Below, one piece after another: positions 47,560-56,051 of a stretch of 64,000 bases of DNA. A program made the translations under genes and the position numbers. Position 1 is the first letter of the stretch; each line of letters starts with the position of its first letter. The DNA is taken from NCBI GenBank assembly GCA_002951815.1, contig CP019454.1, positions 2,914,001 through 2,978,000 on the forward strand, written 5' to 3'. The notes below the pieces were generated by a model. The model saw nothing but the letters and a program-made list of their open reading frames with translations, searched no databases and had not been told where the DNA came from. Source of the DNA: Sulfobacillus thermotolerans (lineage in GTDB: Bacteria; Bacillota; Sulfobacillia; Sulfobacillales; Sulfobacillaceae).

Positions 47560-48543
47560 TCAAAACTGCGTAGGAGCCGCTAAGATTTTTTGGGGATCTA
47601 ACACAAAAGGGCCGTCACGTTCCACCCGTAATGACACCGGTTCATCAGGGCGCAAGACTACGGTCCGTTCGCCATCTAAGGCTACTGATCCTCCTTGGGG
47701 CCGTGACCACACCACGGGGCTGTTCAGATCCACGGTAGCAGAAGCTTTTACATAAAAAGGCACCACGAGCCCAGGCGCCATCACCGCCAGAACCGGGCGC
47801 TGACCCATCGTCTCGTCTCCTAAGGTAAGATGTAATGCCACATCATCATCGGCATAGGTGGGCTGAAAAAACCCCCCGACATTTGACAAGCCGGGACGAA
47901 CGGGATCGGCCATACTCAAAAACAATTGTTCCACATCCTCGGGACGCCATACCGCTAAAGCCCCGGTATAGGTTTGGCGGACCAACGCCGCATCAATTAA
48001 TGCCAGTTCCTCATGGCCATTGTCCAATTGCACGTGAATGAGTTTGGCTTGCCGGCCGACCAGAAGCGGGTCGTCTCCACGGACGGCATACAAGGCGGCG
48101 GCAAACCCTGCGGCGGTCTGGTCGCCCGTCCAACACGCGACGTTATTGGTTCCTCCCGCGATCGGCAGCATGGGAATGCGTAATCCTGCTTGAGCCACGT
48201 TACGCTGCGTCCCGTCTCCCCCCACGGACACGACAACACGCGCTCCCTCATCTTGCAAGCGTCTCGCCCAATCTGTCGTCGACGCTCCATTACTGGGTTC
48301 CTTTTCTGCTGCGACTAGGCGTACGGGTAAGAGTTCGCCCAGTTCGTGTAATGCATAGCGCCCAAAACCCTCGTAGTCATTGACCATCACCACTTCGGTG
48401 TCAGGGACCGCGGCCATCCCCGACAACAAGCGGCGCGCGGTCAACATCTTCTCGGGTGCCGACTGCAATGATGCGGCCGCCACCAAACGCCGAATATCAC
48501 GTCCCGCCATCGGATTGATAATCAGGCCAATTGTCGTCATCAA
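47560..48543 (-). CDS. ATP-NAD kinase / AcoX-like family protein
   Basis: A 327-residue protein of the NAD-kinase fold. IGLIINPMAGRDIRR at the N-terminus, VVSVGGDGTQRNVAQAG and LPIAGGTNNVACW are the nucleotide-binding motifs. Family members include NAD kinase and the poorly known AcoX proteins. The substrate cannot be assigned. It starts four bases after the MarR-family gene stop and may be controlled by that regulator. Confidence 0.8.
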   Translation of the reverse strand: MMTTIGLIINPMAGRDIRRLVAAASLQSAPEKMLTARRLLSGMAAVPDTEVVMVNDYEGFGRYALHELGELLPVRLVAAEKEPSNGASTTDWARRLQDEGARVVVSVGGDGTQRNVAQAGLRIPMLPIAGGTNNVACWTGDQTAAGFAAALYAVRGDDPLLVGRQAKLIHVQLDNGHEELALIDAALVRQTYTGALAVWRPEDVEQLFLSMADPVRPGLSNVGGFFQPTYADDDVALHLTLGDETMGQRPVLAVMAPGLVVPFYVKASATVDLNSPVVWSRPQGGSVALDGERTVVLRPDEPVSLRVERDGPFVLDPQKILAAPTQF

Positions 48544-48547
48544 CGTA

Positions 48548-48991
48548 TCACCTGTTTTTCGCCATTGATTCCGGCGGAATCAGCTTGTTCAAAAGCCCAA
48601 TCAATTGGTCTTGTTCCTCCGGCGTCAACCGTTCATCCGCGCGTTGTGCCAAAAACTCGACATGTTCACGCCGTTCCCGTGTCAACAACGCTTCTCCGCT
48701 TTCCGAGAGCCTAAGCCACACCATACGGCGGTCTTGAGGGTCACGGTCTTTAGACAATAACCCTTTTTGCGCTAAAGCATCCACCGCCCTTGTCGCCGTC
48801 GGAGCCGATACCTGCAAATGCTTGGCCATGTCCATAAGCGTCAATGTCCCTTGGTCTCGAATCATGTACAGCGTATGGTATTGGGTAGGGGTAATATGCC
48901 ATGGGGCTCGGTCACGAGCAAACTGACGCCCCATCATGCGCAAGACGCGAAACGCCCCATCAAACAAAGATTCTGCCTTTTCTTGATCCAC
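48548..48991 (-). CDS. MarR-family transcriptional regulator
   Basis: A 147-residue winged-helix regulator: TPTQYHTLYMIRDQGTLTLMDMAKHL, then VSAPTATRAVDALAQKGLLSKDRDPQDRRMVWLRLS, the recognition helix and wing. GTG 48991 gives a family-sized protein behind AAGGAG; longer frames to 49099 have no site. It is followed by the NAD-kinase-like gene. The ligand is unknown. Confidence 0.83.
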   Translation of the reverse strand: MDQEKAESLFDGAFRVLRMMGRQFARDRAPWHITPTQYHTLYMIRDQGTLTLMDMAKHLQVSAPTATRAVDALAQKGLLSKDRDPQDRRMVWLRLSESGEALLTRERREHVEFLAQRADERLTPEEQDQLIGLLNKLIPPESMAKNR

Positions 48992-49088
48992 GGCCTTGTG
49001 TCTCACTCCTTCTGCATAGCATACCATCTGAGACGCATAAGCGGTAGATTTCCCGCCAAAAGAAGCCAGATTTCTCAACAAAATGGAC

Positions 49089-49114
49089 GGCGGAGGCATT
49101 GAGCCCCCGCCGCC
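49089..49114 (-). terminator. GC-rich hairpin after the Tau-like operon
   Basis: An imperfect GC-rich stem with a TCAAT-like loop lies just past the ATPase gene stop on the minus strand and is followed by a T-rich stretch. It probably separates the transporter operon from the MarR unit; readthrough is possible. Confidence 0.5.
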
Positions 49115-49116
49115 AT

Positions 49117-49893
49117 TTAGCCTGCTGTTTGGCTATGCGGTGGTCGTAGGATATGGAGCACCTCTTTCTTATAGCGCAAAAATTCCGGAGAAAGCACCAT
49201 ATCCCAATTGCGTGGGCGGCCTAACCCAATATCAATCACCTGCGCAATCCGCCCAGGTCTAGGTGTCATAACGATAACACGGTCCGCCAACACAATGGCC
49301 TCTTCGACGTCATGCGTGATAAAGAGAACCGTGGGCCTTAAGCGGTCCCAGATGGTCAACAGAAACTTTTGCATGTCGGTTCGCGTTTGCGCGTCAAGAG
49401 CGCCAAAAGGCTCATCCATGAGAAGCATTTGCGGTTCTGTAATCAAGGCCCGCGCAATCGCCGCCCGTTGCTGCATACCGCCCGAGAGCTGATAGGGAAA
49501 ATGGTTCTCGAAACCTTTGAGTCCCATAATCTCGATGATTTTGGCCACTTTATCGTGCGAACGCGTCTTGCGTCCCTCTTGCAGCGTTAAGCCAAAGCCA
49601 ATATTGTCGAACACGGTCATCCAAGGAAGCAACGAAGGCTGTTGAAACACCACCGCTCGGTCTGGTCCAGGCTTGCGAACGGGTACGCCATTAACCACGA
49701 TGTCGCCTTGTGAAACAGATTCAAAGCCTGCGACCATGTTCAAGACCGTTGTTTTCCCACATCCCGAAGGGCCGACAATGCAAACAAACTCGCCAGCTTC
49801 AATTTGCGCATCAAAATCATCCACCGCCAGCACGGGCTTCCCCCCTTTTTGCGTGGGGGGGTAGAACTTGCTGACATTTTGCAGTGATATCAC
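49117..49893 (-). CDS. Taurine/sulfonate-type ABC transporter, ATPase
   Basis: A 258-residue ABC ATPase of the TauB/SsuB/NrtD group. Walker A GPSGCGKTTVLN, LSGGMQQRAAIARAL and LLMDEPFGALD are intact. Last gene of a three-gene leftward operon, 12 bases after the binding protein gene. The transported compound is read from the other subunits. Confidence 0.9.
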   Translation of the reverse strand: MISLQNVSKFYPPTQKGGKPVLAVDDFDAQIEAGEFVCIVGPSGCGKTTVLNMVAGFESVSQGDIVVNGVPVRKPGPDRAVVFQQPSLLPWMTVFDNIGFGLTLQEGRKTRSHDKVAKIIEIMGLKGFENHFPYQLSGGMQQRAAIARALITEPQMLLMDEPFGALDAQTRTDMQKFLLTIWDRLRPTVLFITHDVEEAIVLADRVIVMTPRPGRIAQVIDIGLGRPRNWDMVLSPEFLRYKKEVLHILRPPHSQTAG

Positions 49894-49905: not shown

Positions 49906-50949
49906 TTACCCCTGATGTTCTTGGTGATAGACCGTCTCGCAATAACTCGGATCGACGTATTGACTAAGATTGGGGGGGACGCTGGAAATTTGACCGGTCT
50001 GCTTCAACCACTGCGCCGCTGAAGTTAACGAGCGCGTCACAAGGGAATCTTTGACGGTACTGGCCGTCCCCAAGCGGCGGGGTGTCAATTCCTGGGCCAG
50101 CGTGGTAAAGCTGAGGCCTGCCGCCTGGCTACGCGCTTCGGCAGGAGAAATCCCATTGAGTTTGGCAATGTCTTCAAACGATTTCGTTGGGTGTTGGTAA
50201 AAGAACTTTACGCCGTCCTCTTCGGCCTTCACGAACTCATCGACTAGCTGGGGATTTTTAGCGGCAAAGTGCGCATTGACCACCGCTAAATTAAAAATCG
50301 GCGCTTTGTCCACCTGATCCTGGTCATAAATCAGAATATGTCCATCATCTTGCTGCATTTCATTGAGAAATGGCGCCCACACATAGGCGGCATCAATGCG
50401 GCCCGTTTTCCACGCGGCCACCATATCCGGCGGTGACATATTGTTGATTTGCACCGATGATACGGGGAGATGGTGCATGGCCAGCGCCGTATCTAGCTCA
50501 AAAGGCGAAGTGGAACCGCTTACCAATGCCACCGTCTTCCCCTCTAAATTTTGCAGCGAATGGATATGACTGCCGTTTTTCACCACCAATCCCTCGGCCG
50601 TCGTATACCGCTCCATGGCCCAAACCACTTTAAGCGGCACACCCCGAGCAATCGCCGCTGCTGTTGGAGGATTGCCCAGAGTTGTCATAAAGTCCAAGGA
50701 TCCTGATGCAAGTGAGGTCAGCGCGTCAGGGCCGGAGGAAAAATACTTCAACACCACGTGGGCATGCATCGTCTTTTGAAAAAAGTTTTGTTCTATCGCC
50801 ACAGACTCCGGATCGGGCGCATTTTCGTAGCCAATCGTCACCGTCGGTTCACTGGCTGCCCCAGACGTGCCGCACCCGGCCACGATGGCCATTAATGGCA
50901 ACACCATTAATCCGGCCAGAAACGGCTTCAAGGTCTTCTTTTTCTCCAC
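49906..50949 (-). CDS. ABC transporter substrate-binding lipoprotein (TauA/SsuA-like)
   Basis: A 347-residue binding protein with a lipoprotein signal (lipobox AIVAGC near residue 26). It has the TauA/SsuA pattern: VTIGYENAPDPESVAIEQ, SGSLDFMTTLGNPPTAAAIARG, VALVSGSTSPFELDTAL and DAAYVWAPFLNEM. Best match is taurine-type binding proteins, so taurine or another sulfonate or small zwitterion is likely, though not proven. Middle gene of the operon. The gap before it (51 bases) holds its AGGAGG site. Confidence 0.87.
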   Translation of the reverse strand: MEKKKTLKPFLAGLMVLPLMAIVAGCGTSGAASEPTVTIGYENAPDPESVAIEQNFFQKTMHAHVVLKYFSSGPDALTSLASGSLDFMTTLGNPPTAAAIARGVPLKVVWAMERYTTAEGLVVKNGSHIHSLQNLEGKTVALVSGSTSPFELDTALAMHHLPVSSVQINNMSPPDMVAAWKTGRIDAAYVWAPFLNEMQQDDGHILIYDQDQVDKAPIFNLAVVNAHFAAKNPQLVDEFVKAEEDGVKFFYQHPTKSFEDIAKLNGISPAEARSQAAGLSFTTLAQELTPRRLGTASTVKDSLVTRSLTSAAQWLKQTGQISSVPPNLSQYVDPSYCETVYHQEHQG

Positions 50950-51001: not shown

Positions 51002-51853
51002 TTATGCTTTCCCCTTCCATGGTGTGACACGGTGCTCAATGGAGCGAATAATCAACTCCATGCCGTATCCCAACAACCCAATCATGACGATGCCGACAAA
51101 GACTACCCCAATTTGTAATTCATTGCCGGCCGACTCAATCATCCATCCTAGGCCCTTGGAGGCAGCAATCATTTCCGCTGCCACTAAACAGGTCCAGGCA
51201 ATTCCAATGCCAACCCGCATGCCCGTAAAGATTTCTGGAAGCGCTGAAGGAAAGATGACATAGCGGAAAATCTGACGCTTGTTAGCGCCTAAGCATTGCG
51301 CTACGCGAATGCGCGTTTCTTGAACACTCTTAACGCCTGACATCGCGCTGATGATGATAATCGGGATGGTGCAGAAGAAAATCAAAACCACCTTGGACGT
51401 CTCCCCAATGCCAAACCAGACAATCATGACGGGGATGTACGCCAAGGGCGGAATCGGCCGCAAAAATTGCAACAGCGGATCAATCGCTAAGAACACCCAA
51501 TCCGTGGACGCCATCCAAAATCCAATCGGCACGCCCACGACCACTGCTGCTATAAATCCGGTCGTAATCCTCCCCAAACTGTAAAGCGTACTGGTTAACA
51601 GTGGCTCCCCACTATAACCGACCGTCGCGACGGTGATAAAGTCATGGACAACGGCCCCGGGTGAAGGCAAGGCCGTTGGAGGAAAGAGATTTAAGGCCGT
51701 CACTCCCCACCACAAGGCTATCATGATAACGGCGACGAGCCATGGCACGTAGCCACGATAGGGCTTTTTGTCTTCCTTCCACACTTTTTGCTCCAGTGCG
51801 CCTTCGGCGCTTTCGGCGTCAAGCTCATCAGACGCCATGTAGCTATACCCCAT
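51002..51853 (-). CDS. Taurine/sulfonate-type ABC transporter, permease
   Basis: A 283-residue membrane subunit with about six helices and the conserved coupling loop CLGANKRQIFRYVIFPSALPEI. ATG 51853 follows AAGGAGG by eight bases; a frame to 51922 runs into the leader terminator and is not coding. First gene of the operon, directly downstream of a c-di-AMP riboswitch. Confidence 0.9.
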   Translation of the reverse strand: MGYSYMASDELDAESAEGALEQKVWKEDKKPYRGYVPWLVAVIMIALWWGVTALNLFPPTALPSPGAVVHDFITVATVGYSGEPLLTSTLYSLGRITTGFIAAVVVGVPIGFWMASTDWVFLAIDPLLQFLRPIPPLAYIPVMIVWFGIGETSKVVLIFFCTIPIIIISAMSGVKSVQETRIRVAQCLGANKRQIFRYVIFPSALPEIFTGMRVGIGIAWTCLVAAEMIAASKGLGWMIESAGNELQIGVVFVGIVMIGLLGYGMELIIRSIEHRVTPWKGKA

Positions 51854-51924
51854 GTCAGCAGCCTCCTTGCAAATGCATAATCTCTTCTCATCTCCTATCC
51901 AACTGAACAGTCGCCCCATCAAAG

Positions 51925-51946
51925 AAAAAACCGGGCTAAAGCCCGG
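51925..51946 (-). terminator. Riboswitch-associated intrinsic terminator
   Basis: On the minus strand a six-pair GC stem (51931-51936 with 51941-51946, four-base loop) is followed by six T. It lies between the riboswitch aptamer and the permease start, 72 bases upstream of it, so it can stop transcription before the operon. Confidence 0.85.
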
Positions 51947-51960
51947 GCATAGTCCAAGCC

Positions 51961-52072
51961 TTCCAAGCCGACGAGGTAAGCTGACGGGCTAGGGCGGATG
52001 GCTGCCCCCTTGCGTACGCCCCGAAAATTGGGTCCCCCGTTCGTGTGATGACACGATTTGGCGATTGATTCA
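51961..52072 (-). ncRNA. c-di-AMP riboswitch (ydaO/yuaA class)
   Basis: Read leftward this region carries the conserved core of the ydaO/yuaA riboswitch: ACGGGGGACCCAAT, then GGGGCGTACG, and CCCGTCAGCTTACCTCG near the 3' end, closed by GCC/GGC ends (5' side near 52060, 3' side 51967-51972). B. subtilis ydaO has nearly the same blocks in the same order. The class normally binds c-di-AMP and turns genes off. A terminator follows 15 bases later. Coordinates of the 5' edge are approximate. Confidence 0.87.
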
Positions 52073-52265
52073 ATTGGCACGCCGCTCTCTAGCCTAGAAT
52101 ATGCTGTAGATGCAACGCTTGTGCTTTTTAAGGCTACCATGGATAAGCGGATGTTGGCAATTTCGACCTATACTGACAAATATCGCAACCGAAAATTTAA
52201 GCTCCCCATTCTTCCCCAAATTGGGTAAGATAATGGGCATACCTGATTTTCCAGGAGGTTCTGTG

Positions 52266-52886
52266 TTGCCCTCATTTGCAGATATCATACTCATTCGACA
52301 TGGTGAAAGCGAAGCCAATGCCGCCGGTCGCTTTGCCTGTCGCTCATGGGATCCAGCCCTTACGGCAACAGGACGGGCTCAAGCACAACAACTGGCCCAC
52401 CAATGGCATAACGCGCCCATACGCTATTTGGTTACAAGCCCGTTGCTCAGAGCCCAAGAAACGCTAGCCCCTTTAGCCCAAGATCATGACTTGACTCCCG
52501 TGATTTTGCCTGATTTAGCCGAAGTCAATCTAGGCCAATGGGATGGAAAGCGCCTGCGCGATCTTGAGGAAGCGGAGTCCCCGTCCTTTATCGCATGGCG
52601 TCAAGATCCTGATCGCAATCCACCCCCTGGCGGCGAAAGCATTCGGGCGGTGGGGCAACGCGTGTTGAACGCCCTGGCCCACTTTGTGGAACCCCGAGAA
52701 CGCCATACCTTGACGATTGCTGCCACCCATGCGGACTGCATTAAAGGCGCGGTGATGCTGATTATGAACGCTGAAGGTCCCATGGCGCGTCGCCTGGTTG
52801 TCCCTAATGCGGGTCACGTTGTCTTGCGCTGGTACGAGACGGGCGTGTGGACCATGGTCTTTGCCGATCCCAGAGTCCCGTCGTAA
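52266..52886 (+). CDS. Histidine phosphatase family protein
   Basis: A roughly 206-residue phosphatase of the cofactor-dependent phosphoglycerate mutase superfamily. LIRHGESEAN gives the phospho-His near residue 13, SPLLRAQETLAPL the substrate pocket, and the second His is in AATHADCIKG near residue 160. TTG 52266 (or GTG 52263) follows AGGAGG; the longer frame upstream has no site. Substrate unknown; such enzymes include GpmB and CobC-like phosphatases. Confidence 0.83.
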   Translation: MPSFADIILIRHGESEANAAGRFACRSWDPALTATGRAQAQQLAHQWHNAPIRYLVTSPLLRAQETLAPLAQDHDLTPVILPDLAEVNLGQWDGKRLRDLEEAESPSFIAWRQDPDRNPPPGGESIRAVGQRVLNALAHFVEPRERHTLTIAATHADCIKGAVMLIMNAEGPMARRLVVPNAGHVVLRWYETGVWTMVFADPRVPS

Positions 52887-53336: not shown

Positions 53337-54302
53337 GTGATTCGCTTGTCATTAGCATGGCGTTTAGCTGTTCTCGCCCTAGGATCCACCCTTATCGCCG
53401 GTTGCGGAACCACCCCAAGTGCCGCTGCCCCCAACCACGTGTCTCATAGCATCCGGATTGTAGATGACACCGGACGCACGGTAACCTTGCCGAAACCGGC
53501 AACACGGATCGTTACTATCGATCCCAGCAATACCGAGATTGCATTAGATTTGGGATTAAAATCGGACATTGTCGGCACCGATTCCTCGACGTTCCAGTAT
53601 GCCCCAGCGCCTTGGGCATCAGAGCTCAAAGGGCTGCATGACATTGGGTCCTCGTATCCTGGGGTCAGTGTCGAACAAATCGTTGCGACCAAGCCAGACC
53701 TCGTCTTGGCCATGCCCGGCATTAAGGGGCTCTCGGCGCTCAGCCGGTTTCACATTCCTGTTCTTATCTTGAGTCCTGAAAGCATCGCCGGTGTGTATCA
53801 CGACATTGAGATTGTGGGTCAAGCCACGGGGCGCGTCCATCAGGCGAGCGCGATTGTCGCCCATCTCAAAAGCCAACTGACAACCCTTGAAGACCTGGTC
53901 AAAAAGAATACCCACCATACGCCGCGGGTTTTTCTTGACCTCGGGCAATTATATACCGCTGGGCCCAACAGTTACCTCAATAGCTTATTAACCATGGCCG
54001 GTTCTCAAAATGTTGCGGCAAGCTTTAGCCACACCGCCTATCCACAAGTAACACCCGAACAGGTCGTCAAAGCCGATCCGCAAATCATCATTTTTGACCC
54101 GGCTGATGGCAGCACCCAGGTTATCGATCAATTGCCCGGCTTTTCTCAACTGGCCGCTGTCAAAAATCACAAGGTTCTAGCCATTCCCCAAGACTCATAT
54201 GTCGATGAACCCTCCCCTGCCGTAGCCATGGGGCTGGTAGAACTGATTCAACTCATCCACCCGCATCTGGCGATTCCTCATGACCTCATCCAGAATTTTT
54301 AG
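53337..54302 (+). CDS. ABC transporter substrate-binding lipoprotein (BtuF/FecB-like)
   Basis: A 321-residue binding protein with a lipobox (LIAGC, Cys23) and two lobes joined by a helix, as in BtuF and FhuD. IRIVDDTGRTVTLPKPATRIVTI and VEQIVATKPDLVLAMP are typical. The ligand may be cobalamin or an iron chelate. The GTG at 53337 has AAGGAGAAAG upstream. I find no cobalamin riboswitch in the 123-base gap before it. It overlaps the permease gene. Confidence 0.87.
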   Translation: MIRLSLAWRLAVLALGSTLIAGCGTTPSAAAPNHVSHSIRIVDDTGRTVTLPKPATRIVTIDPSNTEIALDLGLKSDIVGTDSSTFQYAPAPWASELKGLHDIGSSYPGVSVEQIVATKPDLVLAMPGIKGLSALSRFHIPVLILSPESIAGVYHDIEIVGQATGRVHQASAIVAHLKSQLTTLEDLVKKNTHHTPRVFLDLGQLYTAGPNSYLNSLLTMAGSQNVAASFSHTAYPQVTPEQVVKADPQIIIFDPADGSTQVIDQLPGFSQLAAVKNHKVLAIPQDSYVDEPSPAVAMGLVELIQLIHPHLAIPHDLIQNF

Positions 54303-55269
54303 GATCAGCATGGGCATCGCCCTGCTTGCAGCCGTGATCTTCCTAGGGCTCACCTATGGGCCCGTGACACTCTCCTGGCAACAAGTCGGACAGAGTCTCA
54401 TTCATCCCTTCAGTTCCTCCATTCCTGCCATCATTATCTGGGATATCCGTTTACCGCGATTGATTGCCGCCGCCCTCGTGGGCGGCGCTTTAGGTACCGC
54501 AGGGGCCGTCATGCAAGCCTTGTTTAAAAATCCTTTAGCCGATCCCTATATTGTTGGGGCGTCAGCAGGTGCCGGATTTGGCGCGATGCTCTTAAGTCTA
54601 TTGCTGCCGGCATCGGGTCTCATGGGAGTGGGCGCATTTCTTGGTGCGATTACCGCGGTTTTTGCGGCATATCTACTGGCCCGCGGGCAAGGCCGCGTCC
54701 ATATGCTCACCTTGATTTTAGCGGGATATGCCTTAAGTTTGGTCCTAGGTGCGTTAACCACGTTTGTCATGCTAGCGCATCAAAAGACATTGACGCAGGT
54801 TCTATCATGGGAACTTGGCGGCATTCATGGCATTGGCTGGCATGAACTGTTATGGCCGTCCATTATGATCATCGTGGCGCTAGTGGCCACGTGGCCCTTT
54901 GCTCCTGAGTTAAACGCCTTTTATCTCGGAGAAGAACAAGCGCACTATCTGGGCGTCAACGTGATGCGAGCACAAACGCTCCTGCTAATTCTAGCCAGCT
55001 TGTTAACCGCCGCCTCTGTCTATCTAGCGGGTTTAATCGGCTTTGTCGGATTGGTCATTCCCCACATTATTCGCAGGTTGCAAGGCTCGAATCACCATTT
55101 GCTGCTTCCCCTCTCGTTTTTTGCCGGCGCTATCTTTTTAGTCGGTGCCGACATTTTAGCTGAACAAATCCCGTGGATTGGCACGGTCCCGGTCGGCTTG
55201 GTCAGTGACTTAATTGGCGGTCCTTATTTCGTCTATATTCTCTTCAAAACCCGGGTGGTGTCAGGATAA
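54280..55269 (+). CDS. FecCD/BtuC-type ABC transporter permease
   Basis: A 329-residue polytopic permease with about ten helices. IRLPRLIAAALVGGALGTAGAV (family motif), GASAGAGFGAML, and GLIGFVGLVIPHIIRRL with the coupling loop are clear. It overlaps the binding protein by 23 bases if ATG 54280 is used; an internal ATG at 54310 is the alternative. Its stop overlaps the ATPase ATG by one base. Confidence 0.92.
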   Translation: MTSSRIFRISMGIALLAAVIFLGLTYGPVTLSWQQVGQSLIHPFSSSIPAIIIWDIRLPRLIAAALVGGALGTAGAVMQALFKNPLADPYIVGASAGAGFGAMLLSLLLPASGLMGVGAFLGAITAVFAAYLLARGQGRVHMLTLILAGYALSLVLGALTTFVMLAHQKTLTQVLSWELGGIHGIGWHELLWPSIMIIVALVATWPFAPELNAFYLGEEQAHYLGVNVMRAQTLLLILASLLTAASVYLAGLIGFVGLVIPHIIRRLQGSNHHLLLPLSFFAGAIFLVGADILAEQIPWIGTVPVGLVSDLIGGPYFVYILFKTRVVSG

Positions 55270-56051
55270 TGTCTTTTGAGAGACTCCATTGTGAAAACCT
55301 CCAATATATTTGGCCGTCATCCACGGCTTCTTTTGGACCATTAACCGGCTCATTTCAACCTGGCGCGATTACGGCCTTGATTGGGCCCAATGGAGCGGGT
55401 AAATCCACCCTCTTGCGTCTGTTAGGAGGTTACTTGAAACCAACCAGCGGATCGGTCTATTACGGCGACAGCGCCCTCTTGGATATAGCTGCATCAGCAC
55501 GGGCTAACTTGGTGACCTTAGTGTCTCAATTGATGCCCTTGGGATTTGACCTGACGGTTGCCGAAATTTTAAATTTAGGCAAGCTCCCCAGCATGTCGTG
55601 GAAGACCCGCATAACCGGCGACACCGCCCCGCAGATTGGTCCCGTGCTCGAGCAATTGGGTCTGAGCGCTTTTCACGACCGATCCTACCGGTCATTGTCT
55701 GGCGGCGAACAGCAGCGCACCTTACTCGGCATGGCGCTGGTTCAAAATACGCCCGTGTTACTTCTTGATGAGCCCACGGCCCATTTAGATCCCGGTCATG
55801 CTCAAGCCATCATTCATGTCCTCGAAGACCTCGCCCACGTTCACGGTAAGACCGTCATCATGGCTTACCACGATTTAGCCACAGTGGGCCTTTTTGCTGA
55901 CCACATATGGCTGATGCAGCACGGGCAGGTATCCCTTGCGGCTTCCCCTGAACAGGTTTTGGTATCCCCCCTCTTAGAGCAGGTCTTTCACACCACGTTG
56001 CAGCGCATTAGCCATCCGGTGTCTGGCAAAATGATTGTGCTGGCTTTATAA
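55269..56051 (+). CDS. BtuD/FhuC-type ABC transporter ATPase
   Basis: A 260-residue ABC ATPase: Walker A GPNGAGKSTLLR, signature LSGGEQQRTLLGMAL, Walker B VLLLDEPTAHLD, and a HDL switch. It completes the three-gene importer. A roughly 90-base AT-rich gap follows before the glycosyltransferase. Confidence 0.93.
   Translation: MSFERLHCENLQYIWPSSTASFGPLTGSFQPGAITALIGPNGAGKSTLLRLLGGYLKPTSGSVYYGDSALLDIAASARANLVTLVSQLMPLGFDLTVAEILNLGKLPSMSWKTRITGDTAPQIGPVLEQLGLSAFHDRSYRSLSGGEQQRTLLGMALVQNTPVLLLDEPTAHLDPGHAQAIIHVLEDLAHVHGKTVIMAYHDLATVGLFADHIWLMQHGQVSLAASPEQVLVSPLLEQVFHTTLQRISHPVSGKMIVLAL

Follow-up and report, generated by a model that had tools for sequence, protein, structure and literature searches.

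Does the c-di-AMP riboswitch standing ahead of a Tau-type ABC operon in Sulfobacillus thermotolerans mark this importer as an osmolyte transporter and, if so, for which solute? The locus lies in a 64-kb stretch of the genome, which we call the window. We consider it fairly probable that a c-di-AMP OFF riboswitch, working via transcription termination, controls a TauABC-type importer which would be the c-di-AMP-regulated osmolyte importer of Sulfobacillus; the regulation and its conservation are solid, and they are best read as pointing to an osmolyte role.

The riboswitch leader and the operon

The only Rfam match found by cmscan in the window was to RF00379. The elements of the leader, in order of transcription, are the following.

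51950..52073, minus strand: ydaO/yuaA c-di-AMP riboswitch aptamer, RF00379 (cmscan 58.4 bits, E 5.9e-11, model positions 1-134)
51991..51995, minus strand: GCCCU, the 3′ strand of one aptamer stem and the proposed antiterminator strand, which would compete for the 5′ arm of the terminator (complementarity and covariation)
51925..51947, minus strand: intrinsic terminator CCCGGGC-TTTA-GCCCGG-TTTTTT (6-bp G+C stem, 4-nt loop, six T)
51862..51868, minus strand: Shine-Dalgarno sequence of the permease gene, AAGGAGG (conserved in relatives)

The initial annotation had recognized the ydaO/yuaA core in this leader and named a search with the RF00379 model in Infernal as the check; run as cmscan, the search gave a match over the full length of the covariance model, with a score above the gathering threshold of 38 bits. 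The intrinsic terminator that had been placed ahead of the permease gene is also there. It begins three bases downstream of the aptamer match, therefore the span first marked, 51925-52072, equals the aptamer plus the terminator. The riboswitch of the Tau-type operon is an ordinary member of its known class. We infer that the aptamer binds c-di-AMP; the S. thermotolerans genome codes for two proteins with a diadenylate-cyclase (DAC) domain (146 and 91 bits). The leaders of B. subtilis kimA/ydaO and B. thuringiensis kdp are similar in having a full aptamer, a terminator directly downstream and a transport operon under control; however, known targets of ydaO/yuaA riboswitches are K+, Opu, amino-acid or cell-wall genes, whereas the target in the window is a TauABC-type importer. 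A scan for sigma-70 promoters found none on the minus strand ahead of the aptamer; this region was no richer in matches than shuffled sequences.

The genes downstream, with their conserved neighbours, are listed in the same order.

51002..51853, minus strand: TauC-like ABC permease (BPD_transp_1; NCBIfam TauC NF007545, 262 bits; PF00528)
49906..50949, minus strand: TauA-like substrate-binding lipoprotein with the signature of the clade, YEN...FNL (E42, N220; TIGR01729, 187.5 bits)
49117..49893, minus strand: TauB-like ATPase (SaoA, 256 bits; TauB NF008421, 245 bits)
49086..49114, minus strand: 12-bp hairpin after the ATPase gene, with a weak U-run (such sites are frequent by chance)
48548..49099, minus strand: MarR-type regulator, a conserved neighbour (model matches; neighbourhood comparison)
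47560..48543, minus strand: NAD-kinase/diacylglycerol-kinase-like protein, a conserved neighbour of the MarR gene (domain match; neighbourhood comparison)

The genes for permease, binding lipoprotein and ATPase follow one another in this order, separated by 52 and 12 bases, and form a Tau-type ABC operon, as had been claimed from the open reading frames. The reading frame of the permease can open at TTG 51922, the start chosen by the ORF finder; judging from AAGGAGG at 51868 and from relatives, the likely start is ATG 51853. The Pfam domains PF09084, PF00528 and PF00005, as well as the fold and the subunit make-up, place the system in the TauABC/SsuABC-like importer superfamily. None of the three subunits reaches its curated taurine cut-off: 187.5 versus 304 bits for TauA (TIGR01729), 262 versus 342 for TauC (NF007545) and 245 versus 357 for TauB (NF008421); the best model for the ATPase is SaoA, slightly above TauB and also under its cut-off (256 versus 360).

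The hairpin at 49086..49114 is a possible end of the transcription unit, and the MarR regulator may or may not be co-transcribed with the importer. We did not assign the MarR and kinase-like genes to the regulated core: they accompany the importer in many relatives, but the spacing between the MarR and ATPase genes varies there, with 17 bp as the shortest and about 1.5 kb as the longest. Beyond the riboswitch, away from the importer, lies a divergent gene of the histidine-phosphatase family (52263-52886), conserved in many relatives. A further neighbour, on the plus strand at 53337-56051, is an ABC importer of the iron-siderophore/B12 type (binding protein, permease, ATPase).

Conservation of the pairing and a proposed switching mechanism

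Orthologs of the permease were drawn from 60 relatives, and loci with at least 50% identity were counted (25 with the window included). RF00379 directly preceded 19 of the 25 orthologous operons, the one in the window and 18 others, within the Sulfobacillus family and order; the remaining six operons had no RF00379 match when scanned down to E 1. On the tree of binding proteins the riboswitch label required 3 changes versus 9.6 in shuffles, a contrast inflated by near-copies; the pattern is compatible with one gain and a few losses of the riboswitch.

For comparison, we searched 398 genomes from the phylum for TauA-like loci and scanned 20 of these loci for riboswitches. The sole bearer of RF00379 was a Sulfobacillus-family member counted already; the scanned loci from elsewhere in the phylum had none. 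A search of genome contigs with the binding protein returned two loci (one Sulfobacillus sp.). Judging from the 19 of 25 orthologs, the pairing of riboswitch and importer in the Sulfobacillus family is not accidental. In another Bacillota genome we saw a SAM riboswitch near a TauA-like gene (locus L173, 492-600, minus strand of the locus), which may be a sulfur-starvation counterpart.

How the leader would switch is suggested by its anatomy. The aptamer strand GCCC (51992-51995) is complementary to GGGC in the 5′ arm of the terminator (51941-51944); mutually exclusive pairing of an aptamer stem and a terminator is the usual riboswitch design. With turgor and K+ sufficient, c-di-AMP would be high and the aptamer would hold its stem strands, letting the terminator form and turning the operon off. 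Under osmotic stress c-di-AMP would fall, the freed strand (GCCC/AGCCCG) would pair with the terminator 5′ arm, and RNA polymerase, with this arm sequestered, would read through into the operon. The OFF polarity is that expected from the known class together with this anatomy.

Strand and arm change together in some relatives: an aptamer strand GCUC faces an arm GAGC in L043-L045, and GCCCC faces GGGGU in L054 and L055; there was no compensation in L051-L053. When strands and arms were shuffled, the true assignment was equalled or beaten once in 5000 trials. The covariation probably reflects two evolutionary events; therefore we take the alternative pairing as supported, not proven.

A G+C-rich hairpin beside a U-run lies between the aptamer and the Shine-Dalgarno sequence in 16 of 18 relatives. 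In L046 and L049 the aptamer is kept and the terminator is replaced by a hairpin, GUCCCCG/CGGGGAC, directly before the Shine-Dalgarno sequence, which suggests translational instead of transcriptional control. In these two relatives a hairpin at the ribosome site seems to do the work of the terminator, unlike in the known ydaO/yuaA leaders named above.

The solute and its use

The nearest solved structure to the binding protein, both by sequence and by fold, is E. coli TauA (6ssy). The predicted model (pLDDT 87.7) matched it with a Foldseek E-value of 7e-28 and a VIA-align Z-score of 33.7 over 291 residues (rmsd 3.1, about 30% identity). In TauA, Gln30 holds the sulfonate together with backbone amides of three residues (Gly61, Gly79, Thr132). 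The amine is contacted by Thr132, Asp205 and Glu106, of which Glu106 is essential for taurine binding and Asp205 distinguishes taurine from other sulfonates (PMC6906117). In TauA numbering, the Sulfobacillus clade keeps Gly61, Gly79, Glu106, Thr132 and Trp176; in contrast to TauA, every ortholog covering the two positions, with or without the riboswitch, carries Q30->E and D205->N. The Gln and Asp are retained in TauA-like proteins of Shinella (at an xsc locus), Sinorhizobium and Caballeronia. One could speculate that an extracytoplasmic Glu at position 30 may be partly protonated in an acidophile and thus Gln-like. The window's system shares with E. coli TauABC the fold and these pocket residues; it differs, besides the two substitutions, in the absence of tauD from the genome and in the c-di-AMP riboswitch ahead.

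The closest homolog beyond the Sulfobacillus group with the YE...N signature is a protein of the proteobacterium Paraburkholderia phymatum (pBPHY01, locus L135; 39% identity). Its importer has the gene order of the window's operon; however, the binding protein lacks the TauA-type Glu106 and Thr132 (E106->A, T132->Q), and the neighbouring genes are pta, a gene for a TauE-like exporter and a clear xsc (1072 bits).

The ligand is likely to be a sulfonate or a similar zwitterion. Plain taurine or sulfonate is less secure, because the subunits miss the curated cut-offs and two side chains that contact taurine are changed. Of the importer family proposed in the initial annotation, the Tau-type operon stands, while taurine or sulfonate specificity loses ground to the curated taurine scores and the missing Gln30 and Asp205. 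It is possible, if as a minority reading, that the importer carries a small solute other than taurine: a different sulfonate, or a zwitterion resembling betaine or an amino acid. The solute would still serve as an osmolyte, and to that extent this reading overlaps with the explanation we prefer. The two clade-wide substitutions beside a retained essential E106 and T132, scores under the taurine cut-offs, and the match of the binding protein to PF04069 OpuAC (47 bits, cut-off 21; NMT1 and TauA models score higher) point that way; yet TauA is the nearest structure on both counts, and the nearest outside homolog sits in a sulfonate locus. In the preferred explanation the importer would bring in a small zwitterion to be kept as a compatible solute; taurine or something closely related to it is the most likely candidate.

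Related families offer a parallel: among the related genomes searched, those with classical Opu betaine importers usually have the riboswitch in front of them. In family f2 RF00379 directly precedes Opu operons in all four genomes with OpuAC proteins; in G043 it stands directly before both Opu operons and in G009 before one of two. The stretches read at the second G009 operon and at four OpuAC loci of the more distant G045 had no RF00379. The riboswitch-controlled Opu importers (L150-L156) resemble the window's operon in riboswitch class and in the ABC importer operon directly downstream, and probably hold the same physiological place; they differ in the OpuAC-type binding protein and in gene orders other than permease, TauA-like protein, ATPase. 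In the window's genus, g1, the TauA-like protein is the sole match to the OpuAC family, and no true Opu or BCCT importer was found in the genus genomes searched.

Taurine catabolism was sought in the S. thermotolerans genome in the form of three enzymes, TauD, SsuD and Xsc. Neither TauD nor SsuD was found, and for Xsc there were only acetolactate-synthase-like relatives below the cut-off (best 287 versus 676). The conserved neighbourhood of the importer holds no catabolic gene. As the pairing with the riboswitch is conserved across the family, we suggest that the importer would carry an osmoprotectant rather than food. The original proposal that the ligand serves as an osmolyte is thus favoured on comparative grounds, by the Opu riboswitches in related families and by the absence of Opu and BCCT importers and of TauD, Xsc and SsuD.

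We regard it as unlikely that the importer is a scavenger of taurine or another sulfonate for S, N or C, with c-di-AMP control reporting the state of growth or cell wall. Taurine was indeed proposed as a nutrient of Sulfobacillus in a passage of PMC4378227, and the P. phymatum homolog keeps company with genes such as xsc. Against a scavenger speak a genome without the three catabolic enzymes, a conserved neighbourhood free of catabolic genes, RF00379 before Opu importers in related families, and, outside the Sulfobacillus group, a TauA-like locus of the phylum with a SAM riboswitch nearby instead.

Passages of PMC4768214 describe taurine in acid-mine biofilms, report acid-mine bacteria and archaea without taurine synthesis, and note that sulfobacilli have taurine transporters, which might respond to unfavourable conditions. 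Whether in Sulfobacillaceae a TauABC-type importer whose pocket has been remodelled (Glu 30, Asn 205) took over the role of c-di-AMP-regulated osmolyte importer, filled elsewhere by Opu and BCCT systems, is in our judgement an evenly balanced question. Its cargo would be taurine, or a sulfonate or zwitterion yet to be named, that acid-mine communities offer.

A taurine transporter of sulfobacilli has thus been described already, in passages of PMC4768214 and PMC4378227; the taurine passages of the two papers do not mention a riboswitch. In the literature we found no paper joining the c-di-AMP riboswitch and taurine (those mentioning ydaO, riboswitch and taurine together draw no link) and no mention of riboswitch control of sulfobacillus taurine transporters; surveys of ydaO gene associations (Block 2010, Nelson 2013) could list the target earlier. 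With such an earlier listing possible, the well-supported new part is what the riboswitch controls: a TauABC-type importer with an altered pocket, from a lineage mostly without Opu and BCCT. If the osmolyte reading is true, the c-di-AMP osmotic regulon extends to sulfonate-type ABC importers, and regulation can reveal the function of a transporter where annotation cannot; we would also predict that acid-mine sulfobacilli take up taurine for osmoprotection under second-messenger control.

Other c-di-AMP riboswitches in the genome

The S. thermotolerans genome has six copies of RF00379, the window copy included, and only for the latter was a transporter target found. The other five precede genes for two PG-binding/3D-domain proteins, a PG-binding/GH18 protein, a LysM-NlpC/P60 protein and a GT4 glycosyltransferase, mostly targets of the cell-wall type; therefore, the c-di-AMP targets here are not osmolyte transporters alone. 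The window copy scores lowest of the six, as a non-functional relic or a chance resemblance might; nevertheless, such an origin is extremely improbable and we rejected it on score and conservation, given the E-value of 5.9e-11, an aptamer kept with terminator and Shine-Dalgarno sequence across many species, and compensatory changes between the aptamer strand and the terminator arm.

The best-scoring copy of the genome (L066, 4437-4564; genome positions 2384436-2384563) lies upstream of the gene for the GT4 glycosyltransferase; wall hydrolases are the more usual kind of RF00379 target.
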